Shown: piece by piece, positions 3,703 to 60,182 of the stretch | Layout of the letters: each line of letters starts with the position of its first letter | How positions within the stretch are numbered: position 1 is the first letter of the stretch | Source: Phycisphaerae bacterium | GTDB lineage: Bacteria; Planctomycetota; Phycisphaerae; UBA1845; UTPLA1 | Reading direction: 5' to 3' | Assembly: GCA_023150615.1 (NCBI GenBank) | Contig: JAKLKO010000002.1 | Coordinates: forward strand, 62,001 to 126,000 | DNA: 64,000 nt | Made by a program: the position numbers and the translations under genes | Notes under the pieces: model-generated | Database searches by the model: none | Told to the model about the DNA's origin: nothing | What the model saw: the letters and a program-made list of their open reading frames with translations, nothing else

Positions 3703-4656
3703 ATGACGATCGGGGGATCGGAACGATCCGAGATGGCGTCTGCTGCGATTTCCACCGCTGACACCGTGCGACAAATGCCTGGCGCGGCCGCGCCGCGGCA
3801 TCGTGCGACCGGATGCTCGTTGGTCGAGAATTCGCGTACCCACGCCTTGACCGTCGATCTCGAAGATTGGGGTGTCGCCGTCATGGGACCGGACCGGCCC
3901 GTGACGGATCGCGTCGTAAGGAACACGCACGTCGTGCTCGATCTGCTGGCGTCGCACGGCATTCGCGCGACGTTCTTCGTGCTCGGCCGGGTTGCCGAGG
4001 CCTTTCCATCGTTGATACGTACTGTGCACGCGGAAGGGCACGAAATCGCCAGCCACGGATACGGCCATGAGTCGCTCGGCCGCCTCACGCCGCAGTCGTT
4101 CCGGGAGGACGTTGCTCGCAGCGCCGCCGTCCTCGCAGACGTCGTCGGCGAACGGCCCGTGGGTTATCGCGCGCCCGCGTTTTCCATTGTCGATTCCACG
4201 CGCTGGGCCGGACCGATCATGGCGGAATTGGGTTTTCGCTACAGCTCGAGCATCTTTCCGTTTCGCGGCTCACGTTACGGTATCGCGGATGAGCCGCCCG
4301 GGATTCACCGCTGGCGGGAGTGCGATCTGATCGAGGTTCCGCCGGCCACGGTGGTCGCGCTGGGGCGCCGCTGGCCGGTCGCGGGCGGCGGGTATTTTCG
4401 ACTGTTGCCGGGCGCGGTGGTACGCGCGGCCGTCCGTCGGGCCCAACGCGAACGACGGTCGTTCGTCGCGTACCTCCATCCGTATGAATTGGATCCGCCC
4501 GAGATGGTCGATTTGCGCGCGGCGGGCTGGCACATCCCCTGGAAGCGTCGCGTGACGCAGGCGATGTTCCGCACGCGGATGTATCGCCGACTCGCGGCGC
4601 TTCTGAAGGCGCACCGATTTGCGCCGATTCGGGACGTGATTGCCGATTGGCTATAA
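3703..4656 (+). CDS. Polysaccharide deacetylase (NodB homology domain)
   Basis: Up to 317 residues. NodB motifs are present in order: the catalytic Asp in LTVDLEDWG, the metal-binding HxxxH as SHGYGH, the RAPAFS motif, and a late YLHPYELD. The layout, with a short N-terminus and the DxEDW motif, is closest to the PEP-CTERM/XrtA-locus and DUF3473-type deacetylases that act on exported polysaccharide. No signal peptide is seen, so it may act in the cytoplasm or at the membrane. The start is uncertain: ATG 3703 or ATG 3733, neither with a clear ribosome site. A NusG paralogue follows after 9 bases. Confidence 0.82.
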   Translation: MTIGGSERSEMASAAISTADTVRQMPGAAAPRHRATGCSLVENSRTHALTVDLEDWGVAVMGPDRPVTDRVVRNTHVVLDLLASHGIRATFFVLGRVAEAFPSLIRTVHAEGHEIASHGYGHESLGRLTPQSFREDVARSAAVLADVVGERPVGYRAPAFSIVDSTRWAGPIMAELGFRYSSSIFPFRGSRYGIADEPPGIHRWRECDLIEVPPATVVALGRRWPVAGGGYFRLLPGAVVRAAVRRAQRERRSFVAYLHPYELDPPEMVDLRAAGWHIPWKRRVTQAMFRTRMYRRLAALLKAHRFAPIRDVIADWL

Positions 4657-37192: not shown

Positions 37193-37873
37193 ATGTTGTC
37201 GCCGCATCACTTCCCCGGTCGGCTGATCATCGTCGAAGGCATCGACGGTTCGGGGAAGAGCACGCAGTTGCAGCTCGTCCGGCGCTGGCTGGAATCGATG
37301 GGCTACAGCGTCGTCTTCACGGAATGGAATTCCGCGGACCTCGTTCGCAAGACGACCAAGAAGGGCAAGAAGAATCGCAGCCTGACCCCGACGACGTTCA
37401 GTCTCCTCCACGCGACCGACTTCGCCCACCGCCTCGTCAGCAACATCCTCCCGCCGCTCAAGGCCGGGATGATCGTCCTCGCCGACCGGTACGTCTTCAC
37501 CGCGTTCGCCCGGGACGTGGTCCGGGGTTGCGATCGCGACTGGGTCCGGAGGGTCTACGGCTTCGCGCCGCGGCCTGACATCTCGTTCTACTTCCGGGTT
37601 CCGATCGACGTAGCGCTCCGCCGGATCACGATGGCACGGCAGGTGCTCAAGGACTTCGAGGCCGGCATGGACCTGAATCTGTCGCCGGATCCGATGGAGA
37701 GTTTCAAGTTGTTCCAGGGTCGCATCCTTCACGAATACGACGCGATGGCCGACGAGAACGACTTCGCCGTGATGGACGCGACGGGCAGCATCTCGGAACA
37801 GCAGCGGCTGGTCCGCGCCATCGTCGAGGATCGCCTGCTCAGCGGATACCGAAAGAAGCCGAGGATTGCATGA
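37193..37873 (+). CDS. Thymidylate-kinase-like P-loop protein, paralogue 1
   Basis: 226 residues, close to dTMP kinase length. Walker A is canonical (EGIDGSGKST, Lys22). The DRYVFTAFARD segment matches the DRY motif of thymidylate kinases, and VPIDVALRRI aligns with their late helix. A strongly basic stretch at 51-61 (RKTTKKGKKNR) replaces the usual TREPGG motif and is not expected in housekeeping Tmk. Six bases separate it from ppx. Either a divergent nucleotide kinase or a phosphate-transfer enzyme that uses another phosphate donor or acceptor. The paralogue overlaps its stop by four bases. Confidence 0.75.
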   Translation: MLSPHHFPGRLIIVEGIDGSGKSTQLQLVRRWLESMGYSVVFTEWNSADLVRKTTKKGKKNRSLTPTTFSLLHATDFAHRLVSNILPPLKAGMIVLADRYVFTAFARDVVRGCDRDWVRRVYGFAPRPDISFYFRVPIDVALRRITMARQVLKDFEAGMDLNLSPDPMESFKLFQGRILHEYDAMADENDFAVMDATGSISEQQRLVRAIVEDRLLSGYRKKPRIA

Positions 37874-38640
37874 ATCCGCTCCAGTTCTTCGGAAAAGGAC
37901 TGCCGTACCTGCCGCCCGCGGATTACCCCGGCGTCTTGATCACGATTGAGGGGACGGACGGCGTGGGGCGGTCCACGCAGATGACGATGCTCCGACAGTG
38001 GCTCGAAGTGCAGGGCTTCGGCGTCGTCGAGACCGGCTGGACGCGCAGCCCGCTGATCGGCCGGACGATCGCCGAGGCGAAGCAGGGCCGGGCGCTGAAT
38101 CGCTTCACCTACGCGCTACTCTATGCCGCGGACTTCGCGGATCGGCTGGAGAAGGAGATCATCCCCGCGCTCCGCAATGGGTTCGTGGTCCTGGCGGACC
38201 GTTACGTCTTCACTGCGTTCGCGCGGGATGTCGTTCGCGGCGCGGATCGGCAGTGGGTCCGTGACCTCTACGGCTTCGCTCCGATTCCGCATCTGGTGCT
38301 CTATCTGAAAACCGACATTGCGACGCTGATCCGCCGCGTCATTCCGCGCGGCGTGATCGACTATTTCGAGTCGGGAATGGACCTCGCCCTCGGCGACGAT
38401 CCGTACGACAGCTTCAAGCGCTACCAGACGCTGCTCATGCGCGAGTACGACAAGATGGCCAGGGAGTTCGGCTTCACCGTGCTCAACGCGCGTCAACACC
38501 CCGATCGCATCCAGCGGCAGCTGCGCGACGCGGTGTCGGAGCTCTTCGCGTCGCGCGGGTTCTGGCAGTCGCCGACACGCGTGGAGATCCCCGTGGAGGC
38601 GCCGTCGGCGGCCACCGCGCCGCAGGTCGCCCGTCGCTGA
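37870..38640 (+). CDS. Thymidylate-kinase-like P-loop protein, paralogue 2 with altered Walker A
   Basis: 256 residues, clearly homologous to paralogue 1 (shared DRYVFTAFARDVVRG and the following WVR-LYGFAP segment). The P-loop reads EGTDGVGRST, with Arg34 at the position of the catalytic Lys, so ATP hydrolysis may be lost or altered. The basic 51-61 stretch of paralogue 1 is absent, and the N-terminus is longer by about 16 residues. It starts inside the previous gene (ATGA overlap), so the two are probably made together and may form a heterodimer. The C-terminus is Ala/Pro-rich. Confidence 0.75.
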   Translation: MNPLQFFGKGLPYLPPADYPGVLITIEGTDGVGRSTQMTMLRQWLEVQGFGVVETGWTRSPLIGRTIAEAKQGRALNRFTYALLYAADFADRLEKEIIPALRNGFVVLADRYVFTAFARDVVRGADRQWVRDLYGFAPIPHLVLYLKTDIATLIRRVIPRGVIDYFESGMDLALGDDPYDSFKRYQTLLMREYDKMAREFGFTVLNARQHPDRIQRQLRDAVSELFASRGFWQSPTRVEIPVEAPSAATAPQVARR

Positions 38641-42338: not shown

Positions 42339-43880
42339 GTGTCGCCGCGACTATCGACGATCGTCGCATTCCTGCTGGGAGCCATGTCGACGGTTGCCGC
42401 CTCGGCGGCAATCTCCGGCCAACAGGTGCTGGTCGTCTACAACTCCGCGTCGCCGGATGGAACCGCGCTCAAGGACCACTACCTCGCCGCGCACCCCGAC
42501 ATCCCATCGTCGAACGTGTGCGATCTGAACAACCCGGTCCTGCTCACCCCCGATCTGCCGTACGGGTTCTTCATCAGTCTGGTTCGTGATCCGATCCGCG
42601 CCTTCATCAATGCCCCCGGATTCCCCGACGCCCCTGATATCGTGGCCGTCGTGCTGATTCGACCGTTTCCGCATCGCGTCTATGACAACACCAACCAGGT
42701 CGCCGGCGACTCGCCGACGAATGCCTCCAACCAGTTCGGCGCGGGCGACGCGATCTTTGCTTCCGTGGATGCCGAACTGGTCCTGCTCTGGCAGGACCTC
42801 GATTCCGGCGAGGCCGGCGGCTCGATGGACAGCCATGCCGACAACATGATCGTGAATCCCTACCGGTTCAGCCCCGACCCGATCGATTCGTTCCCGCGCG
42901 GCAACATCACGACGCGGAAGACGCTACTCGCCAACGGCGGCGTCTGGCGACTCTTCGGCAGCGGTGCGACGCGCCTGACGGCCGGCGATCTTGTCCTCGT
43001 GACGCGGATCGACGGAAACACGCTGAGCGATGCGCGTGCGATCATCGACCGCGCGCAAGACCTCGTCATTAACAAGGCCCGCGTGAAACTGCTCTTCGAC
43101 GAGTATGACCTGACGATCGCCGAAGACATCGACGACGAAATGCTCTTCAGCACCGGCGATCCGTTCTTCGGCGGCGATGATTACGAGGAGGCCCGCGACG
43201 CGGCGATCGCCGATGGCTGGACCGTTCGTTACGACGCAACGTTCGACTTCATCACCGCCGACGAAGAGCCGTCGCCACTGATTCTCTACGCCTCCTACGG
43301 AGAAAACCACAAGCTCTTCGGCGCCGGCGCCGATCCGCCCGGTGACGGAACCTACATCGTTGGATTCGATTTCCCGCGCGGCGCGATCTTTAACACGATC
43401 GAGTCCTACAACGCCCGCGGCCTGAACGGGCACTCGACGCTGTTTCAGCAGGAACAGGTCGCGGATTTCATTGCGGCGGGCGGCACGTTCGCCGTCGGAC
43501 ACGTCTGGGAGCCGTTCGCATTCACCGTGCCCGACAACGAATTCCTGGTGAAGAACTTCCTCATCGCGCGCCGGACCTGGGCCGAGGCGGCGTGGACGGC
43601 CATCTCATCGCTGAGCTGGCAGCACGTTGTGATCGGCGATGCGCTCGCAGTGCCGATGATCGCGAACGATCCCGCGCCGGTGCTCGGCGATCTGGATGGC
43701 AACGGAACCATTGACGGCCATGATATCGACGACATGACGGAACTGCTGCTGGACGGCGTGGCGGCCTATGTCGCGGCTCATCCGGATCTCGATCCGTACG
43801 CCCGCGCGGACTTCAACGGCGATGGACGGATCACGCCCGCCGACCTCACGGGCTTCGAGGCCGCGCTGCTGTCGCCCTGA
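42339..43880 (+). CDS. TIGR03790-family exported protein with dockerin-like repeats
   Basis: 513 residues from GTG 42339. A signal peptide (VAFLLGAMSTVAASA) precedes a large domain containing QQVLVVYNSASPDG, an Asp/Pro-rich region with LFFGGDDYEEA-like and YASYGENH segments, and a late FAVGHVWEPF, as in TIGR03790 proteins of unknown function. The C-terminus has two EF-hand-like loops (GDLDGNGTIDGHDI and DFNGDGRITPADL), a dockerin type I-like pair that binds calcium. Such tails are frequent in planctomycete secreted proteins, where they may mediate attachment rather than cellulosome assembly. Confidence 0.72.
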   Translation: MSPRLSTIVAFLLGAMSTVAASAAISGQQVLVVYNSASPDGTALKDHYLAAHPDIPSSNVCDLNNPVLLTPDLPYGFFISLVRDPIRAFINAPGFPDAPDIVAVVLIRPFPHRVYDNTNQVAGDSPTNASNQFGAGDAIFASVDAELVLLWQDLDSGEAGGSMDSHADNMIVNPYRFSPDPIDSFPRGNITTRKTLLANGGVWRLFGSGATRLTAGDLVLVTRIDGNTLSDARAIIDRAQDLVINKARVKLLFDEYDLTIAEDIDDEMLFSTGDPFFGGDDYEEARDAAIADGWTVRYDATFDFITADEEPSPLILYASYGENHKLFGAGADPPGDGTYIVGFDFPRGAIFNTIESYNARGLNGHSTLFQQEQVADFIAAGGTFAVGHVWEPFAFTVPDNEFLVKNFLIARRTWAEAAWTAISSLSWQHVVIGDALAVPMIANDPAPVLGDLDGNGTIDGHDIDDMTELLLDGVAAYVAAHPDLDPYARADFNGDGRITPADLTGFEAALLSP

Positions 43881-43905
43881 TGCGCGGCTTGCGAGCGCGG
43901 CCCGA

Positions 43906-44520
43906 TCATGGGTACAGCCGCACGTAGATCGCCTTCGGCGTGGTGGGGCAGTAGAACTGGCATACGCCACAGCCGACGCATCCGATGCCGTGGTGCTTCG
44001 CCGGGTCGATCACGTCGACCCTGCCGTCGTCGCCGATCCGGATGGCGTCACCCCCGAGCGGACAGCGCTCCACGCAGATCCGACAATCATCACCGCGGCT
44101 GCGAACGCACGTCTGCTCGCGCACGATCGCCAGCCCCATGCGGATCGCGTGCTTTCCGACCAGCGAAAGCGCGCCGCTCGGACAGGCCCGCATGCACGCC
44201 AGTTCCTCGCACACGACGCAGGCCGCGAGATCGGGGTCGATCAACGGCGTTCCGCGCGTCTCCTCATCGTCGCCCTGAACGAGTCGGATGCACTTCGCTG
44301 GACAGACGTCCGCGCATGCGCCGCTGCGATAGCACGTATCGAGAAACTCCCGCTCCGGAAGAGCCCCCGGCGGGCGCAACACGTCACGGCCCTGCGGCAG
44401 CGGGAACGGCAGTCTCTTTTCGAGGTATTCGGCGAGCGGTCGAATGACGCGCCCGAACCCCGCCGCGAAGAAGCGTCGACGATCGTGCGGCGGCAGGTCG
44501 TCGATCGGTCGGTCAGGCAT
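43906..44520 (-). CDS. Polyferredoxin-like 4Fe-4S protein (NapG/MauM-like)
   Basis: 204 residues from ATG 44520; the frame continues to 44571. The N-terminus has a degenerate twin-Arg-like DRRRFFAAG with no long hydrophobic stretch. Several Cys clusters follow: CYRSGACADVCPAKC, CVVCEELACMRACP, CRICVERCP, and the canonical CVGCGVCQFYCP near the end. The first cluster lacks the second Cys of the usual CxxCxxC, so its iron-sulphur centre may be altered. Likely electron transfer. The ATG overlaps the stop of the zinc-ribbon gene by 8 bases, so the two are coupled. Confidence 0.8.
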   Translation of the reverse strand: MPDRPIDDLPPHDRRRFFAAGFGRVIRPLAEYLEKRLPFPLPQGRDVLRPPGALPEREFLDTCYRSGACADVCPAKCIRLVQGDDEETRGTPLIDPDLAACVVCEELACMRACPSGALSLVGKHAIRMGLAIVREQTCVRSRGDDCRICVERCPLGGDAIRIGDDGRVDVIDPAKHHGIGCVGCGVCQFYCPTTPKAIYVRLYP

Positions 44521-44731
44521 GGGGCTTTCGAGCCGCGACGCGTCCCGACGCCGCGCGCTCCAGTTCCACAACTCGTCTCGTGAGCCGCTCGAAGACCGCG
44601 CGGACCGTAGTCGGCAGTTGCGCGCAGAGTTCGCAGTAGAACCGCTGCGCCGGGCTGTGCTTCACCGGGTAGCGGTACTTCTCGCCGCACGCACGGCAGA
44701 CGCGCGTCTGAACCTCGTCATCTCCGTTCAT
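44513..44731 (-). CDS. Small zinc-ribbon protein
   Basis: 72 residues from ATG 44731, in the sigma-factor/ferredoxin operon. Two Cys pairs (CRACGEKYRYP and FYCELC) about 20 residues apart make a likely zinc ribbon, followed by an Arg-rich helix (VFERLTRRVVELERAA). Small zinc-ribbon proteins can bind nucleic acid or act as an anti-sigma or adaptor, but no specific family is recognised. The start is 34 bases after the sigma factor stop. Confidence 0.65.
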   Translation of the reverse strand: MNGDDEVQTRVCRACGEKYRYPVKHSPAQRFYCELCAQLPTTVRAVFERLTRRVVELERAASGRVAARKPHA

Positions 44732-44765
44732 GTGTCTTCGCCGTTGTGCATCCCGCGGCGCGCGC

Positions 44766-45398
44766 TCAGGCCTCGTCGGACGACAGGCCCATTTGCTCAA
44801 ACTGCCGCCGCAATTGCGCCAAAGCCCGATGGCAGATCATATGGATGCTCCCGACGCTCCGCCGCATGCGCTCCGCGACCTCTCCGACCGGCAGGCCGTG
44901 AATGAACCGCAGGCGAATCACCTCCTGGTAATGCTCCGGCAGCGCCGCCAGGCACGTGTGCAGCGTGCCGACGGCCTCGCGCGACCGCAGCACGCGGCTC
45001 GGCGTACCCGTCTCCGCCTGGAGGCGCCCGATCAGGTCGATGTAGCCACTCCGCTGGTTGTCGCCCGAGACGGACTTCGTCTCCCGCCGCACGTCGCGCC
45101 GCTCGGCATGGAGTGCCCGGTGCTCATCGATCAGCTTTCGATCCAGGATCGTGAACAGCCACCTGAGAAACGAGTCCTTCCCGAGATAGTTGAATTGCCC
45201 GATGGCCTTAAACGCCTCGAGATAGACCTGCTGGAGGATGTCCTCAGGCTCAATCCGCGCTTTCATCGTGGCATCCATCTGACGCATCAGCCGCGCGCGA
45301 AGCCGCGGGTGATACATGACGAGCAAGCGCTTGAAGGCCTGCTCGTCGCCGCCTCCGGCCTTGCGAATCAGAACCAGGGTATGCTGCGGGTCGTCCAT
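44766..45398 (-). CDS. RNA polymerase ECF-type sigma factor
   Basis: 210 residues. Region 2 contains LLVMYHPRLRARLMRQM and EDILQQVYLEAFKAI. Region 4 has LPEHYQEVIRLRFIHGLPVGEVAERM and the helix-turn-helix end GSIHMICHRALAQLRR. This planctomycete-type ECF is often encoded next to a Ser/Thr kinase, as here: a kinase gene diverges with a spacer of 231 bases. The sigma factor may be controlled by that kinase. Confidence 0.88.
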   Translation of the reverse strand: MDDPQHTLVLIRKAGGGDEQAFKRLLVMYHPRLRARLMRQMDATMKARIEPEDILQQVYLEAFKAIGQFNYLGKDSFLRWLFTILDRKLIDEHRALHAERRDVRRETKSVSGDNQRSGYIDLIGRLQAETGTPSRVLRSREAVGTLHTCLAALPEHYQEVIRLRFIHGLPVGEVAERMRRSVGSIHMICHRALAQLRRQFEQMGLSSDEA

Positions 45399-45629
45399 TC
45401 ATCCGCCGCGCGGTGTTTCCGTCCGCCAGTACCTTTCGACGCCGGCTCCAGCGATCCAAAGCCCGTTGCAGATTGTAATCGACGCCTGGCGCAGCCACGC
45501 TATCCTTCGCGTGCGACCGGGGGTAGAATGGCGTTCACCGTTTCGGCGACAACCCAAGTATCGGCAGAGACTTGGAGGCATTGTCGTCGGCCGGGACGGG
45601 AACGGTCGTCACCCTGCGGGCCCGACGGT

Positions 45630-47297
45630 ATGGCCATGAGCGACAAGGGCGCGGAATCCAATCTGGACGGCTTCGCCGAGGGTGATGACCCGCGCGAACA
45701 GCGCGTCGGGGAGCTCCTCAACGAGTTCCTCGACCGCCGCCTGCGCGGCGAGGCTGTGTCCGAGGACCAGTTTCTCGCCGCGAATCCCGACGTCGCCGAC
45801 GAGCTTCGCCGCCACCTCGACGGCCTGGCGATGATCGACCGGCTGGGGGCGCAGGCCGACGACGCGACGGTCGCGCTCGGTACGCCGCGCGCCGGCAGCT
45901 CGGACCTGCGCGAACGCCTGGAAGAGGAGCCCATCGGTCTGCCGGAGATCGAGGGCTACGACCTCATCCGCGAGATCGGCCGCGGCGGCATGGGAATCGT
46001 CTTCAAGGCGGTTCAGCGCTCCACGAAGCGACCGGTGGCGCTCAAGGTGCTTCTCGAAGGCCCGTTCGCATCGGAGCAGGCCCGCCGCCGCTTCGAGCGC
46101 GAGATCGAGCTGGCCGCGCAACTGCGCCACCCCTGCATCGTCCCGATCTACGACAGCGGACGCTCCGGCGGCCGCATGTACTACGCGATGGAGTATGTCC
46201 ACGGCCAGGCGCTCAGCGAGTACGTGCGGACGCACGCGCTGCCGCAGCGCGATCGGCTGAAGTTGTTCCTGAGGATCTGTGGCGCGGTGAGCTACGCAAA
46301 CCTGCGCGGCGTCGTTCATCGCGACCTGAAACCCGCGAATATCCTCGTTGACGCGGACGGCGAGCCGCGCGTCCACGACTTCGGGCTTGCCAAAATGGGC
46401 GGCGCGCAGGACATGACCACGTCGGTCACCGCCCAGATCATCGGCACGCCGGCCTACATGGCGCCGGAGCAGGTGACCGGCGATCCCACTGCCGTTGACC
46501 CGCGGACCGATGTCTACTCGCTCGGCATCATCCTTTACGAACTGGTCACCGGCCGAATGCCCTATCCGACGACCGGCGCACTGGGCCAAGTGCTGAACCA
46601 CATCACGCAGACTGATCCGGAACGGCCATCGCGGCTCGATCGCGACGTCTCGTCGGAGTTGGAGGCGATCCTGCTTAAGGCGCTCGCCAAACGGAAGGAC
46701 GATCGCTACCAGTCGGTCTCAGCGCTGGCCGACGATGTTTCGCGTTACCTCGCCGGTGAGCCGATACAGGCCCGGCCCGCCGGCGCGCTCTACCTGCTCG
46801 GAAAAGCGCTCTGGCCGCATCGGCACCTCGTGGCCGTCGTGTCGCTGATGATCGTCCTCGGCGGCGTCGGACTGGTCATCGTTTTTCAGGCGCGCGGCGC
46901 GGCGGACTCGCAGCGGCGTGAGCGGCAGCAGCTCGAGATGCAGCTCGCCGCGGAGCGACTTCGGGCCAAGGAGGCCGAACTCGAAGCGGAGCGCAAGCGG
47001 CAGGAGGAGCTTCGGCTTCGCGACCAGCAGTGGGCCGAGTTGATCACGCGTCGATTGCAGGAGCTGCAATTGCCGCCCGACGCGGGCGATCGCCTCGCGA
47101 AACGCACCGACGGTCTGCTACAGGGACTGGCGCCGAAAAACCCGAGCATGCTCCTGACCCGCACGCTCGGCCAGGGGCTTGAAGCTCTGGGTCAGGCGAT
47201 GCAGGACCCGGCCGCCCAATCCGCGGCGACACAACCGGCGACGCAGCCCGCGGCCGCGGAACCAAATGCCTCAACGACTCAGCAAAGCGGCGAGTGA
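45630..47297 (+). CDS. Membrane Ser/Thr protein kinase
   Basis: 555 residues from ATG 45630 (ATG 45636 is an alternative); the frame extends to 44730 as a shadow. After about 110 residues without known domain (Asp/Glu/Arg-rich), the kinase domain runs from IGRGGMGIVFKAVQ. The catalytic loop HRDLKPAN has its Asp near 232, followed by DFGLAKMG and APEQVTGD. One membrane helix (about 400-420, VSLMIVLGGVGLVIVF) is followed by an outer part with a Gln/Glu/Arg-rich helix of about 70 residues, likely coiled coil, and a low-complexity Ala/Gln/Pro tail. Unlike PASTA kinases it has no peptidoglycan-binding domain. Confidence 0.9.
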   Translation: MAMSDKGAESNLDGFAEGDDPREQRVGELLNEFLDRRLRGEAVSEDQFLAANPDVADELRRHLDGLAMIDRLGAQADDATVALGTPRAGSSDLRERLEEEPIGLPEIEGYDLIREIGRGGMGIVFKAVQRSTKRPVALKVLLEGPFASEQARRRFEREIELAAQLRHPCIVPIYDSGRSGGRMYYAMEYVHGQALSEYVRTHALPQRDRLKLFLRICGAVSYANLRGVVHRDLKPANILVDADGEPRVHDFGLAKMGGAQDMTTSVTAQIIGTPAYMAPEQVTGDPTAVDPRTDVYSLGIILYELVTGRMPYPTTGALGQVLNHITQTDPERPSRLDRDVSSELEAILLKALAKRKDDRYQSVSALADDVSRYLAGEPIQARPAGALYLLGKALWPHRHLVAVVSLMIVLGGVGLVIVFQARGAADSQRRERQQLEMQLAAERLRAKEAELEAERKRQEELRLRDQQWAELITRRLQELQLPPDAGDRLAKRTDGLLQGLAPKNPSMLLTRTLGQGLEALGQAMQDPAAQSAATQPATQPAAAEPNASTTQQSGE

Positions 47298-47891
47298 CCG
47301 TGCCGCGTCTAGATCGGCGCTGAAATCCGTCGTCGCCGCGGACTGCGGACGCCAACCCGCGACGAGACCCTCACGAGCTTCCCAGGTCGTTCCATTCGAC
47401 CGGTGCTCGTCAAGCCACGCTTCGAACACAGACCACCGCTCCTCGAGCCACGTCGGGTCGTCGCAGACCCAGAACCGCTCCGACGCCTTTCGCTGATGGA
47501 ACGGTGGCCGCATGGCCGCGTGCGCAAACAGCGGATCGGGCGACGTCAAAAGGAAGCACGTCGCCGCCGGAGCAAGACACCCGAAAACGTAGAATGGGTG
47601 CGTCTTTCGCCGCTCCGCAAAGCCCGTCTCGAACGCGTAGTCGACGACGAAGGCCGAGTCCGCCTCGTCCGCGACGAACGCCGCGCGGATACGTCCGCTG
47701 TGACCGACGCGAACCAGCGTCAGGTCGCGGATCGGGATGGGGAGTGACGCGTCTGGATCGTCGATCGGCGTCCACCGGGCGACCGCCATCGCCGCGCGAC
47801 GCAGGTGGCGCCGCCGGCGCGCGCGCTGAACGGCCGCCGCGATCACGATGGCGGCGACGGCGATTCCGAGCGTCGTCGCCAGGTCCGTCAC
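47271..47891 (-). CDS. Hypothetical protein with N-terminal membrane helix
   Basis: 206 residues. An N-terminal hydrophobic helix (TLGIAVAAIVIAAAV) is followed by an Arg-rich stretch (RARRRRHLRR), so it is likely membrane-anchored with the rest in the cytoplasm. No catalytic motif is visible and the family is not recognised. The start overlaps the stop of the upstream haem-like gene by 4 bases, and the stop overlaps the convergent kinase gene by 27 bases. Confidence 0.55.
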   Translation of the reverse strand: MTDLATTLGIAVAAIVIAAAVQRARRRRHLRRAAMAVARWTPIDDPDASLPIPIRDLTLVRVGHSGRIRAAFVADEADSAFVVDYAFETGFAERRKTHPFYVFGCLAPAATCFLLTSPDPLFAHAAMRPPFHQRKASERFWVCDDPTWLEERWSVFEAWLDEHRSNGTTWEAREGLVAGWRPQSAATTDFSADLDAARSLAALLSR

Positions 47892-48811
47892 GGGGTGTCG
47901 CCCGACGGATCGGCGGGCGCCGAATCGGCGTCAGCCTCGGCCGCCGGTCCGGTGGCGGTTCCCATCGGCGGAAGAAGTCGAAAGCCGTACCCTTCGTCGA
48001 CGGGCAGTTGCCGAAGCGACGCGATCCAGTCGCGAATCAGCACGTACCCCGGCGCAGCGCGATTCTGGAAGACGGGCTTGATGGACTGCCCGGGATGGCG
48101 GAGCTTGGTCTCGTCCTCCCGGAGCATGTAGTTGAGCAGCAGCGAATCCTCGGGGTACGTCGGCTCGATCAATCGGAAATCCCGCCGACCGGAACCGGTC
48201 GGTATTTCGTGCGAGACCGTCCACTCGCGGAGCGTCACGAAGTTCCCGTACGTCGTCCGGTCCGAACGCTTGGGATCGTTGTAAAGTCGCATCTTCGTTT
48301 CACTCACGTCCGTCCGGCCGTGACACGCTGAGGTTGCGCAGTTGTTGAGCACGATGGGCATGACGCGGCGACGAAACTCGACCATTGCTTCCGGGTCGGT
48401 CTTGATCTGCACCAGGTCGGCGAAGACCCTTTCGTCCGGTGTATCGTAAGTGGCGAACGCGATCTCGGCGAGCTTCTCCGGCGGGGAAAGCCGCATGAAC
48501 TGCCGGCGTGCCGCGTCTCCCTGGAACCCGGGCGATCCTTGCCGTCGCTCCAGAAACTTGTTGATTGCCGCCTTCGGCACCGTGACGACGACGCGATCCG
48601 CCGACCGCTGGCGCAGCCGCGACGCCCGCAGCTCCATGAACCGGATGCGGTTGATTTGCTCCTTCGTGATCCGATCGGCCACGTCGCTTCTCGGATCGGG
48701 CTTCGGCTCATCTGCCGCGCCGGCCGGCGCGGGGATGCGAAGCACGATCGCGATGATCAACACCACCGGCACAACGGCAGAACCGACCGTAACGGCGTGC
48801 AACCGGGGCAT
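47888..48811 (-). CDS. Exported protein with CX4CH haem-binding motif
   Basis: 307 residues. A signal peptide (VVPVVLIIAIVLRIPAPAGAA) precedes a region with VVVTVPKAAINKFLERR and a central NNCATSACHGRT. This CX4CH arrangement, instead of the usual CxxCH, can covalently bind a c-type haem in some multihaem cytochromes. A probable axial ligand is not identified. The remaining part contains YPEDSLLLNYMLRE, similar in style to planctomycete PSCyt proteins. Probably exported across the cytoplasmic membrane. It is translated together with the following hypothetical gene. Confidence 0.65.
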   Translation of the reverse strand: MPRLHAVTVGSAVVPVVLIIAIVLRIPAPAGAADEPKPDPRSDVADRITKEQINRIRFMELRASRLRQRSADRVVVTVPKAAINKFLERRQGSPGFQGDAARRQFMRLSPPEKLAEIAFATYDTPDERVFADLVQIKTDPEAMVEFRRRVMPIVLNNCATSACHGRTDVSETKMRLYNDPKRSDRTTYGNFVTLREWTVSHEIPTGSGRRDFRLIEPTYPEDSLLLNYMLREDETKLRHPGQSIKPVFQNRAAPGYVLIRDWIASLRQLPVDEGYGFRLLPPMGTATGPAAEADADSAPADPSGDTP

Positions 48812-48896
48812 GAGGGTTTTAACTCCTGTCGAGGGAAGGTCTCGTGACCGCGGTGTTCATTGACGTTCGCCGCGCGGCGTTTCTACTATATCCACC

Positions 48897-49223
48897 GTGT
48901 GCGCCGAGCAGCAAGACGAACACACGTCCAGCAGCGGCGACCCGGACCGCGCCGATGATTCGTTCCTCGCCCTGACCGGCGAGACGATTGTACTCGACAC
49001 GGCCGGGCCGATCCTCTTCATCGGCACGTTGCGAGAGGTGCGGCCGGACGGCTTCTGGCTCGACAACGCCGATGTGCATGATTGTTCCGAGGGCCACGCG
49101 AACAAGGAACTCTACGTGTGCGAAGCACGGCAGACCGGCGTTCGGCCCAATCGCCGCAGCGTGTTCGTTGTGCGGCAGGCGGTCATCAGCGCATCGCGCT
49201 TGTCCGACGCAATTGTTGATTGA
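48897..49223 (+). CDS. Small protein with possible LSm (Sm-like) fold
   Basis: 108 residues from GTG 48897. The core (GETIVLDTAGPILFIGTLRE and FWLDNADVHD) resembles the Sm1 motif, and the part with SVFVVRQAVISASRL resembles the Sm2 region. Such proteins assemble into RNA-binding rings like Hfq. The N-terminus is acidic and disordered. This is a pattern reading by eye without a family match, so the fold assignment is a guess. The gene diverges from the haem-like gene by 85 bases. Confidence 0.5.
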   Translation: MCAEQQDEHTSSSGDPDRADDSFLALTGETIVLDTAGPILFIGTLREVRPDGFWLDNADVHDCSEGHANKELYVCEARQTGVRPNRRSVFVVRQAVISASRLSDAIVD

Positions 49224-56906: not shown

Positions 56907-58334
56907 ATGAGTCGCATCAACACAAACATCCCGTCACTGATTGCCACGCGAATCCTCGGTCAGCAGACGCTGTCGCTCAGCCAGTCGCTCGAACGGCTCA
57001 GCACCGGCTTGCGTATCAACAGCGGCAAGGACGATCCGGCCGGCCTCATTGCCTCCGAATCGCTCCGCGCCGAGGCGACGAGCATCAACGCCGCCATCGA
57101 GAATGCGAGTCGCGCGGGTACCGTGGTCGCCACGGCCGAAGGCGCCCTCGACGAGGTCAGCTCCCTGCTCACCGAACTGCAGGACCTCGTGGTCCGCTCG
57201 GCGAACGAAGCGGGCCTCTCGTCCGATGAACTCGCGGCGAATCAGCTTCAGATCGACTCGATCCTCGATTCCATCACGCGCGTCGCCAACACGACGCAGT
57301 TCAACGGCAAGAAGCTCCTCGATGGTTCGCTCGCCTACACGCTCTCCGGCGTGGATGGCGCCGATCTCACGTCGGCTCGCGTTAACGCGGCCAAGCTGGC
57401 CGACGGCGGCTCCAAGACCGTCGTCGTTCAGGTGACCACCGCGGCCGAGACCGGACGGCTCTACCTCAGCGCCGCCGGACTTGCGGCCAATAACGCCGTC
57501 ACCATCGAGGTCGCCGGCCGATACGGCAGCGACGTCTTCAGCTTCGCCGGCAGCACGGCCAACGCGGCGATCGCTCAGGCCGTCAATCAATCGCGGGAAC
57601 TCACGGGCGTTTCGGCCACTGCAAGCGCGAACGGACGCCTGTATTTCAACAGCACCGACTTCGGCTCCAACGCCTTCGTCTCGGTCGAGGCCCTCTCCGG
57701 CACGTTCTCCGTCAAGGATTCGGGCGGAACGGTCACGACCCGCGACGCCGGCGCCGATGCGGCCGTGACCGTCAACGGCACGTCGGCGACGGTCGATGGT
57801 CTGCTCGCCACGGTGCAGTCGTCCGGGTTGAGCGCGACGTTCCGCCTGAGCTCGACATTCGGCACGACGCCGGGCTCCACGACTTTCTCCGTCACCGGCG
57901 GCGGTGCGAACTTCGCCATCTCGCCGACGCTGACGCTGGCCGGCCGAGAGAGCCTGGGCTTCAGCTCCATCGCGACGAGCAGTCTCGGCGACCAGTCGAT
58001 CGGCGTGTTGTCGACACTCGGCAGCGGGCAGGCCAACGCACTGTCCGCGTCGAACTTCGCCACGGCACAGCGCGTCGTTCGCGAGGCGATCTCGCAGGTC
58101 GCCACGCTGCGCGGCCGACTGGGCGCATTCCAGAAGAACACGGTTGAAACAACGATCGCCTCGTTGCAGGTGGCGAGCGAAAACGTGCTCGCGGCCGAGA
58201 GCGCGATCCGCGATACCGACTTCGCGCAGGAAACGAGCCGCCTGACGAGGGCGCAGATTCTGCTCGCCGCCGCAACACAGACGTTGCGCCTGGCGAACCA
58301 GGCGCCGCAGTCGGTTCTCGCGCTGCTGAGCTAG
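56907..58334 (+). CDS. fliC: Flagellin, paralogue 1
   Basis: 475 residues, with AAGGAGG 7 bases before ATG 56907. The conserved N-terminal D0/D1 core (SRINTNIPSLIATRILGQQT and RLSTGLRINSGKDDPAGL) and the C-terminal core (about 385-475, with ENVLAAESAIRDTDFAQE and a Gln/Ala/Leu-rich last 30) build the filament core. The middle domain (about 170-370) is Ser/Thr/Gly-rich, variable, and exposed on the filament surface. A TAAA at 56756-56759 with GACGATGC 16 bases on loosely resembles a sigma28 promoter, weak evidence. Sugar genes precede directly. Confidence 0.95.
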   Translation: MSRINTNIPSLIATRILGQQTLSLSQSLERLSTGLRINSGKDDPAGLIASESLRAEATSINAAIENASRAGTVVATAEGALDEVSSLLTELQDLVVRSANEAGLSSDELAANQLQIDSILDSITRVANTTQFNGKKLLDGSLAYTLSGVDGADLTSARVNAAKLADGGSKTVVVQVTTAAETGRLYLSAAGLAANNAVTIEVAGRYGSDVFSFAGSTANAAIAQAVNQSRELTGVSATASANGRLYFNSTDFGSNAFVSVEALSGTFSVKDSGGTVTTRDAGADAAVTVNGTSATVDGLLATVQSSGLSATFRLSSTFGTTPGSTTFSVTGGGANFAISPTLTLAGRESLGFSSIATSSLGDQSIGVLSTLGSGQANALSASNFATAQRVVREAISQVATLRGRLGAFQKNTVETTIASLQVASENVLAAESAIRDTDFAQETSRLTRAQILLAAATQTLRLANQAPQSVLALLS

Positions 58335-58733: not shown

Positions 58734-60182
58734 ATGAGTCGCATCAATACCAACATCTCGTCGCTTCAGGCCATCCATCGACTGGTCGCGAACCAGGACG
58801 ACCTGTCCACGCGCCTCGAACGTCTGAGTTCCGGTCTGCGCATCAATCGCGGCAAGGACGATCCCGCCGGACTGATCGCCTCGCAGTCGCTCCGCTCCGA
58901 GCTTCGCGGGATCGGCCAGGCGATCGAGAACTCCAGCCGCGCGATCAACGTCATTGCTACCGCCGACGCGGCGCTCTCCGAAGTCTCCGCACTTCTGCTC
59001 GAGGTCCGTGGCCTGATCAACAAGTCCGCCAACGAGGGCGCGCTCTCCGACGCCGAGATCCAGGCCAATCAGCTTCAGATCGATTCGTTGCTCGAGAGCA
59101 TTGATCGAATCGCCAACACCACGCAGTTCAACGGCAAGAAGCTGCTCAACGGCGAACTGGCTTACAACCTTTCGGGCATCGATTCCGGGAGCCTCGCGCG
59201 TGCGCAGATCTTCGGCGCGCGGGTCCCGGCCGGATCCTCGCTGTCCGTCATCGTCGACGTCACGCAGTCCGCGCAGACCGCGCAGCTCAATCTGGCCGCC
59301 GGCGGCGGGACCGGGCTCTCGGCATCCGGGTTCCTCTCATCGACCAACAATGTCACGATTCAGATCGGCGGCGCGCTGGGCACTGAGACGTTCAGCTTCT
59401 CCGGGGGCACAGTCAATTCAGCCATTCGCGACAACATCAACGCCTTTACCAGCCTGACCGGCGTCTCGGCCTCGCTCAGCGGGCAATCGCTCGTCTTCCA
59501 CAGCACCGAGTACGGGAGCGATGCGTTCGTCTCAGTCGCCCCCACAACCGGCAACTTCACCGTCAGCGGCGGCGACGTGAACGCGACGCGCGACAACGGC
59601 CGCGACGCCGGCGTGCAAATCAACGGCCAGGCGGCCTCGGTCAGGGGCCTTTCCGCCTCAATCCGGACCAACGGTCTCGACCTCGCCCTCGATCTGTCGG
59701 AGTCGTTCGGAACCGCGGTTGGTTCGACCAGTTTCGAGATCACCGGCGGCGGCGCGCAGTTCCAGATCGGACCGACGGTCAACGCCGACGGTCTCGTCAG
59801 CGTCGGGGTGGCCTCGGTCAACACGACGAACCTCGGCAGCGCCACTGCCGGCTACCTGAACACGATCAAGACCGGACAGGCCAACGCGATCGTCAGCGGC
59901 AACTACACGGCCGCGGAGCGGATCGTCAACGCCGCGATCGAGCAGATCGCCGTGCTGTCCGGACGATTGGGCGGGTTCCAGGCGAATCAGCTCGAAACCA
60001 ATATCAACAGCCGCCAGATCGCCTACGAGAACGTCCAGGCGTCTGAGTCGGCGATCCGCGATACGGACTACGCATCCGAGGTCGCCCGTCTGACGCGGGC
60101 GCAGATCCTCGTGCAGGCAACGACGCAGATCCTGTCGATTGCGAACGCCGCGCCGCAGAACGTGCTGGCGCTGCTGCGGTAG
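58734..60182 (+). CDS. fliC: Flagellin, paralogue 2
   Basis: 482 residues, with GGGAGGAA 3 to 10 bases before ATG 58734. It shares the core ends with paralogue 1 (RLSSGLRINRGKDDPAGLIA; TTQFNGKKLL; a final segment with ASESAIRDTDYASEVARL), but the middle is clearly different, so the duplication is not recent. Both have similar length and middle-domain style. Co-assembly or alternate filaments are possible. A long, structured leader of up to 400 bases separates it from paralogue 1, so it probably has separate regulation. Confidence 0.95.
   Translation: MSRINTNISSLQAIHRLVANQDDLSTRLERLSSGLRINRGKDDPAGLIASQSLRSELRGIGQAIENSSRAINVIATADAALSEVSALLLEVRGLINKSANEGALSDAEIQANQLQIDSLLESIDRIANTTQFNGKKLLNGELAYNLSGIDSGSLARAQIFGARVPAGSSLSVIVDVTQSAQTAQLNLAAGGGTGLSASGFLSSTNNVTIQIGGALGTETFSFSGGTVNSAIRDNINAFTSLTGVSASLSGQSLVFHSTEYGSDAFVSVAPTTGNFTVSGGDVNATRDNGRDAGVQINGQAASVRGLSASIRTNGLDLALDLSESFGTAVGSTSFEITGGGAQFQIGPTVNADGLVSVGVASVNTTNLGSATAGYLNTIKTGQANAIVSGNYTAAERIVNAAIEQIAVLSGRLGGFQANQLETNINSRQIAYENVQASESAIRDTDYASEVARLTRAQILVQATTQILSIANAAPQNVLALLR

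Follow-up and report, generated by a model that had tools for sequence, protein, structure and literature searches.

The closest described counterparts of the locus reported here are two pairs of group ECF43, EcfP/PknT of Vibrio parahaemolyticus and EcfK/PknS of Xanthomonas citri, in which, according to the available portions of the two reports, the kinase directly phosphorylates the extracytoplasmic function (ECF) sigma factor encoded next to it (PMC8999054, PMC13147305). In those portions, EcfP is described as phosphorylated by PknT at a threonine in the motif that replaces the acidic DAED, while PknS is described as phosphorylating EcfK in the sigma2-sigma4 linker too, at Thr106 (PMC8999054, PMC13147305). 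A table in the former report lists planctomycete representatives for the kinase-linked groups ECF59, ECF61, ECF62 and ECF217, and kinase-linked ECF groups apart from ECF43 are reported in its available text to retain DAED or a similar motif (PMC8999054). The present locus lies in a stretch of 64,000 nucleotides (the window) from a Phycisphaerae bacterium of the Planctomycetota; the stretch belongs to contig C22, and the genome has 4.1 Mb. As in the two ECF43 pairs, an ECF sigma gene adjoins the gene of a transmembrane Hanks-type kinase, which is divergent from it, and the sigma gene is followed by genes for a small zinc-ribbon protein and a multi-cluster ferredoxin. The four genes are likely to be two independent units that have come to lie side by side, a kinase-linked ECF sigma system and a zinc ribbon/ferredoxin pair, joined by rearrangement.

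The sigma and kinase genes form a conserved divergent pair in the family. The sigma gene was found in 15 of the 16 other genomes of the same family (E <= 1e-35, with 60-70% identity across the family) and the kinase gene in all 16 (E <= 1e-100), and by their coordinates the two are adjacent and divergent in each of the 15 genomes with a sigma gene; the conserved neighbouring Ser/Thr kinase gene by which kinase-linked ECF groups are recognised is thus present in 15/15. In the remaining family genome (G004), which has no sigma match, the kinase is located at a contig end. The searches scored part of the candidates (up to 30 per genome for the sigma factor and 14 for the kinase), so lower-ranking copies may be missed, and many family genomes are fragmented, so that distances between contigs are not measurable. 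The suggestion in the initial annotation that the kinase may control the sigma factor is strengthened by this pairing and by the EcfP/PknT and EcfK/PknS precedent, as far as the published portions describe it.

The zinc ribbon and the ferredoxin form a pair that is conserved separately. The ferredoxin, weaker paralogues counted, has matches in 59 of 101 genomes (E <= 1e-20), and the zinc ribbon in 12 of the 101 (E <= 0.01), 11 of them strong (E <= 1e-6). All 11 strong zinc-ribbon matches lie directly upstream of a ferredoxin gene on the same strand, while two weak ones, in G022 (E 3.5e-4, with an internal stop) and a second match in G054 (E 0.009), are not beside a ferredoxin and are probably due to chance. 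Among 397 drawn genomes of the class, the zinc ribbon was found in nine (E <= 1e-5); eight of these overlap the 11 strong matches, and the ninth, G390, stands outside the adjacency count. No sigma factor or kinase was detected near the 10 zinc-ribbon/ferredoxin pairs outside the window in the fetched stretches (E <= 1e-3; two of the contigs are only about 4 kb long), and among the 11 genomes with strong matches the sigma/kinase pair adjoins the zinc ribbon in the window only. Moreover, a clear ferredoxin orthologue is present in 14 other family genomes (G004 has no match and G016 has weaker relatives only), and in 13 of the 14 it is not beside the sigma/kinase pair. The initial annotation had proposed that the zinc and iron-sulphur proteins sense the redox state for a four-gene unit, a proposal that it set against conservation of these two genes elsewhere, away from sigma/kinase pairs; such conservation is what was found, and the proposed role is unsupported. 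As for the co-occurrence that it had asked about, sigma goes with kinase and zinc ribbon with ferredoxin, but the two units lie side by side in the window alone.

The features of the locus are as follows.

43906-44520, minus strand: MauM/NapG-like four-cluster ferredoxin, 204 amino acids, ATG start (4Fe-4S domains, TIGR00397 nearest).
44513-44731, minus strand: small zinc-ribbon protein, 72 amino acids, ATG start, member of the ferredoxin unit (CxxC-x17-CxxC and conserved adjacency).
44766-45398, minus strand: ECF sigma factor, 210 amino acids, with the acidic motif EPED in region 2.2 and TPS in the sigma2-sigma4 linker (profile match and alignment).
45455-45481, plus strand: promoter-like bipartite motif TNNAAW-N11-WTTSTAATNG directed at the kinase (conserved spacer motif).
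45630-47297, plus strand: Ser/Thr kinase, 555 amino acids, with a conserved N-terminal stretch, the kinase domain (Pkinase), one hydrophobic segment, a charged stretch and a low-complexity tail.
47271-47891, minus strand: protein of 206 amino acids with an N-terminal hydrophobic segment, a kinase-side companion resembling the c8 group of the relatives in alignment.
47888-48811, minus strand: protein of 307 amino acids with an N-terminal hydrophobic segment and an invariant CX4CH (C158, C163, H164), a conserved kinase-side companion.
48897-49223, plus strand: protein of 108 amino acids without a Pfam match, a conserved kinase-side companion.

All four genes are real open frames of the kinds given, and their frames and coordinates bear out the annotated order of sigma factor, zinc ribbon and ferredoxin, the last two overlapping by 8 bases, as well as the divergent position of the kinase. 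A gap of 34 bases separates the sigma stop codon from the zinc ribbon, 231 bases lie between the sigma start and the divergent kinase start, and a search of 43700-49000 for terminator-like sites gave none, against a mean of 3.1 in shuffled sequences. The sigma factor passes the Pfam cut-offs of Sigma70_r2, Sigma70_r4 and Sigma70_ECF and is thereby an ECF sigma factor; its best NCBIfam match is TIGR02984 (planctomycete sigma subfamily 1), at 145.8 bits below the cut-off of 183.75. A planctomycete-type ECF sigma factor beside a Ser/Thr kinase is also what ECF59, ECF61, ECF62 and ECF217 present, a likeness drawn through the published table only (PMC8999054). The kinase contains a Pkinase domain at 177 bits, followed near residue 400 by one hydrophobic segment, a charged stretch that appears coiled-coil-like by eye, and the low-complexity tail. 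The outer sensor region previously ascribed to it is the weaker part of the annotation: it amounts to this single segment with the charged stretch and the tail, where Pfam gave no domain. In addition, the kinases of the family lack the long C-terminal extension present in three of four aligned kinases from outside it.

Compared with the ECF43 factors, the sigma factor of the window differs in region 2.2, where it carries the acidic EPED in place of the STTA or QTTA-type motif with its phospho-threonine that the available text on ECF43 describes (PMC8999054, PMC13147305). The acidic motif, in the form [ED][PA]ED, is present in all 15 family sigma sequences. An ECF43-type phospho-threonine switch was rejected for this sigma factor, the acidic motif being intact where ECF43 has threonine-containing, mostly uncharged residues. 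T132 and S134 of the linker TPS are invariant in the same 15 sequences and are, for that reason, candidate phosphorylation sites; the linker is also the region of Thr106 in EcfK, as given in the published portions. Among 46 parsed sigma factors, from four family genomes plus the pair member of G010, [TS]PS is found in the linker of 25 of the 26 whose kinase lies no more than 1.5 kb away, versus one of the 20 that have none at that distance (16 of 62 stretches had been dropped beforehand, 14 with no sigma match at the threshold and two with no usable frame). The kinase-linked sigma factors are nearly one clade, with three changes on the tree and two or three independent pairs that give a median p of 1 in a sign test, so the association can be explained by descent and is not used as evidence of phosphorylation. 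The second set, with 41 parsed loci (three of 44 stretches dropped before counting), overlaps the first and includes repeats (L333/L126, L335/L127; L311 = L263). There [TS]PS is present in five of the six without a detected kinase (L332, L336, L128, and L119 and L129, whose flanks are short); the remaining one of the six is L311. L322 has a kinase and no [TS]PS. The sigma paralogue L263/L311 lies in the window's own genome (G000, contig C44, about 3954-4619), has TPD in the linker and has no kinase in the fetched flanks; among its 27 parsed relatives (L312-L340), a kinase lies 360-864 bases off in 25 and the linker has TPS or SPS in 26, which looks like the loss of a kinase plus a Ser-to-Asp change in this paralogue.

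The spacers between sigma and kinase genes share the motif TNNAAW-N11-WTTSTAATNG, which points to the kinase. Its exact form occurs 33 times in the 17 family genomes, 13 times in sigma/kinase spacers (of 16) and 20 times elsewhere, against three occurrences of a reversed control. When the spacer is set at 12 bases and the end made stricter (SG for NG), the pattern has six matches and its control two; this variant serves as a rough spacing control only, as three of the six also fit the 11-base pattern, and the stricter end is satisfied by 30 of the 33 matches of that pattern. Both the spacer motif alignment and the sigma alignment omit the near-copy L156 (G006). In the window's genome the copy in the sigma/kinase spacer is the sole exact one, and no exact copy precedes the zinc ribbon or the ferredoxin in the window. 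We read the motif as the putative promoter type of the sigma factor itself, with feedback on the kinase; alternatively, it may be an activator site.

The conserved companions of the sigma/kinase pair sit on the kinase side, not on the ferredoxin side. The CX4CH protein is present in all 17 family genomes, the window's included, 14 times beside the kinase and twice elsewhere (G003, G009), its position in G006 being undecided, as the kinase there is at a contig end. Nine loci have a membrane-protein companion, which falls into two sequence groups; the 108-amino-acid protein is present at 11 loci, the window counted. CX4CH is a known variant of the haem-attachment motif. An alignment of 16 sequences, one of which is not from the family, shows its residues Cys, Cys and His to be invariant, and beyond the family 38 of 84 genomes have weaker matches to the protein. 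Relatives of solved structure were absent up to E 1, Pfam gave nothing above the cut-off and one weak match below it, and profiles lend no support to a cytochrome identity. From their conserved position, the CX4CH protein and its membrane neighbour appear to be the best local candidates for signal input. On the other side of the pair, a small gene that by eye looks acidic and lipoprotein-like follows the sigma gene in L167, L211 and L221 (G009, G015 and G001), where the window has the zinc ribbon.

The zinc-ribbon protein has no family match above cut-off and carries CxxC-x17-CxxC. Zinc-binding anti-sigma (ZAS) factors bear the signature Hx3CxxC; the zinc ribbon was rejected as an anti-sigma factor, lacking both this signature and co-conservation with the sigma factor, and no anti-sigma factor was recognised next to the sigma gene of the window. 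The ferredoxin resembles MauM/NapG in its four 4Fe-4S motifs, which match TIGR00397 over residues 45-200 and account for 16 Cys positions in four clusters; unlike MauM/NapG, it remains below the cut-off of the model (106.7 against 178.85 bits), has no strongly hydrophobic stretch within the first 45 residues, and is partnered by a zinc ribbon or, in some relatives, by a divergent Fur gene. In the first 4Fe-4S cluster the near-invariant Cys at the second ligand position (C66 in an alignment of 22 sequences) is Ser in the window, as it is in L093 from another family, and an extra Cys, shared with G010, lies four residues beyond the last ligand of that cluster; the first cluster may thus be altered in the window. 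Judging from their families, the zinc ribbon and the ferredoxin would be an electron-transfer pair in their own right. A divergent Fur-family gene is the neighbour of the ferredoxin in eight of 31 parsed stretches (L063, L065, L068, L074, L075, L082, L086 and L093) and lies one or two genes away in three more; the family name was established on one member, and nine of the 40 fetched stretches, in which a simple gene caller returned no ferredoxin, were excluded. With such a neighbour, the ferredoxin of those relatives may be controlled by iron or peroxide. The genome of the window has one Fur match, 75% identical, on a different contig.

The junction itself can be viewed against G010, the sister of the window on the sigma+kinase tree (support 100). 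There contig C28 keeps the order thyX-TIGR03790-ferredoxin-zinc ribbon, with 352 bases preceding the zinc ribbon, and the sigma factor, kinase and companions are on C30; the sigma/zinc-ribbon join is therefore not common to G010, which, like all the other genomes searched, belongs to another genus than the window's. In the two-unit reading, the membrane kinase would phosphorylate the divergently encoded sigma factor upon a signal, and the sigma factor would then switch on few promoters, the clearest being the one facing the kinase gene, which, as the conserved motif suggests, would give positive feedback. A rearrangement would have brought the zinc ribbon and the ferredoxin behind the sigma stop codon, and because of the short distance they are probably co-transcribed with the sigma factor in the window, rather than being members of the ancestral circuit. 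A more specific version, in which the kinase acts through the linker TPS and not region 2.2, the system drives its own kinase gene in a positive loop, the signal comes from a co-conserved exported CX4CH protein, and the ferredoxin falls under one or the other arm in two lineages, is unlikely as a whole.

Several observations weigh against the two-unit reading. The retained EPED makes the known ECF43 switch unfit for this sigma factor. The 13 spacer matches of the motif are circular, since it was derived from these spacers, and just nine of the 17 non-spacer sites with flanks have a same-strand gene start within 300 bases; the nine include one orthologous pair (L198 and L226), and several of the products look hydrophobic and membrane-like by eye, whereas the remaining non-spacer sites are inside genes or have no nearby start ahead. 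In G009, moreover, the ferredoxin is near the pair on the kinase side, behind a gene that looks methyltransferase-like by eye, with all three on the same strand and gaps of 6 and 51 bases; gene starts and gaps in the relatives are the output of the simple gene caller. This arrangement could be a real link between the ferredoxin and the pair. It would fit a ferredoxin that was ancestrally unlinked and was captured repeatedly by the sigma/kinase locus, control by the sigma/kinase pathway being favourable: there are two topologies, behind the sigma factor in the window and behind the kinase in G009, in two subclades (G009 clusters with G001, G015 and G012, support 99, apart from the window) and with short gaps, and under random placement a rough hand estimate puts the chance that one more of 14 genomes has the ferredoxin within about 3.6 kb near 0.02. 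However, one contig of G015 carries the pair and, about 39 kb away, the ferredoxin, ordered and oriented as they are in G009, so that G009 may be the collapse of an older regional linkage, and the divergent Fur gene is the commoner neighbour of the ferredoxin; repeated capture is accordingly held to be unlikely.

A single redox circuit of all four genes, in which the zinc ribbon and the ferredoxin sense the redox state and pass it on to the kinase or the sigma factor, could draw on the tight spacing of the three minus-strand genes and on the adjoining ferredoxin of G009, but each unit is kept without the other and the zinc ribbon is without the Hx3CxxC of anti-sigma factors, which leaves the single circuit very improbable. 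A kinase with no action on the sigma factor, the two being only co-inherited and the sigma factor controlled otherwise, would agree with the intact acidic motif, with which the sigma factor could work unphosphorylated. Nevertheless, adjacency retained in 15 of 15 genomes and the precedent for such pairs in the published portions (PMC8999054, PMC13147305) speak against co-inheritance alone, and we give it little credence. The two-unit reading is thus the one that we prefer.

Elsewhere in the window, two genes of the thymidylate-kinase family stand in tandem at 37193-37873 and 37870-38640 on the plus strand with a 4-base overlap, and two tandem plus-strand frames with matching starts, at 56907-58334 and 58734-60182, are presumably flagellin-like, a name taken from the start of their sequence.

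The four-gene arrangement by itself is ordinary. Its analysis sets a regulatory pair that is conserved as such apart from a neighbour whose conservation lies elsewhere. For the kinase-linked sigma factors of planctomycete relatives it offers candidates to start from: for the promoter sequence, for the phosphorylation site and for the sensor protein.

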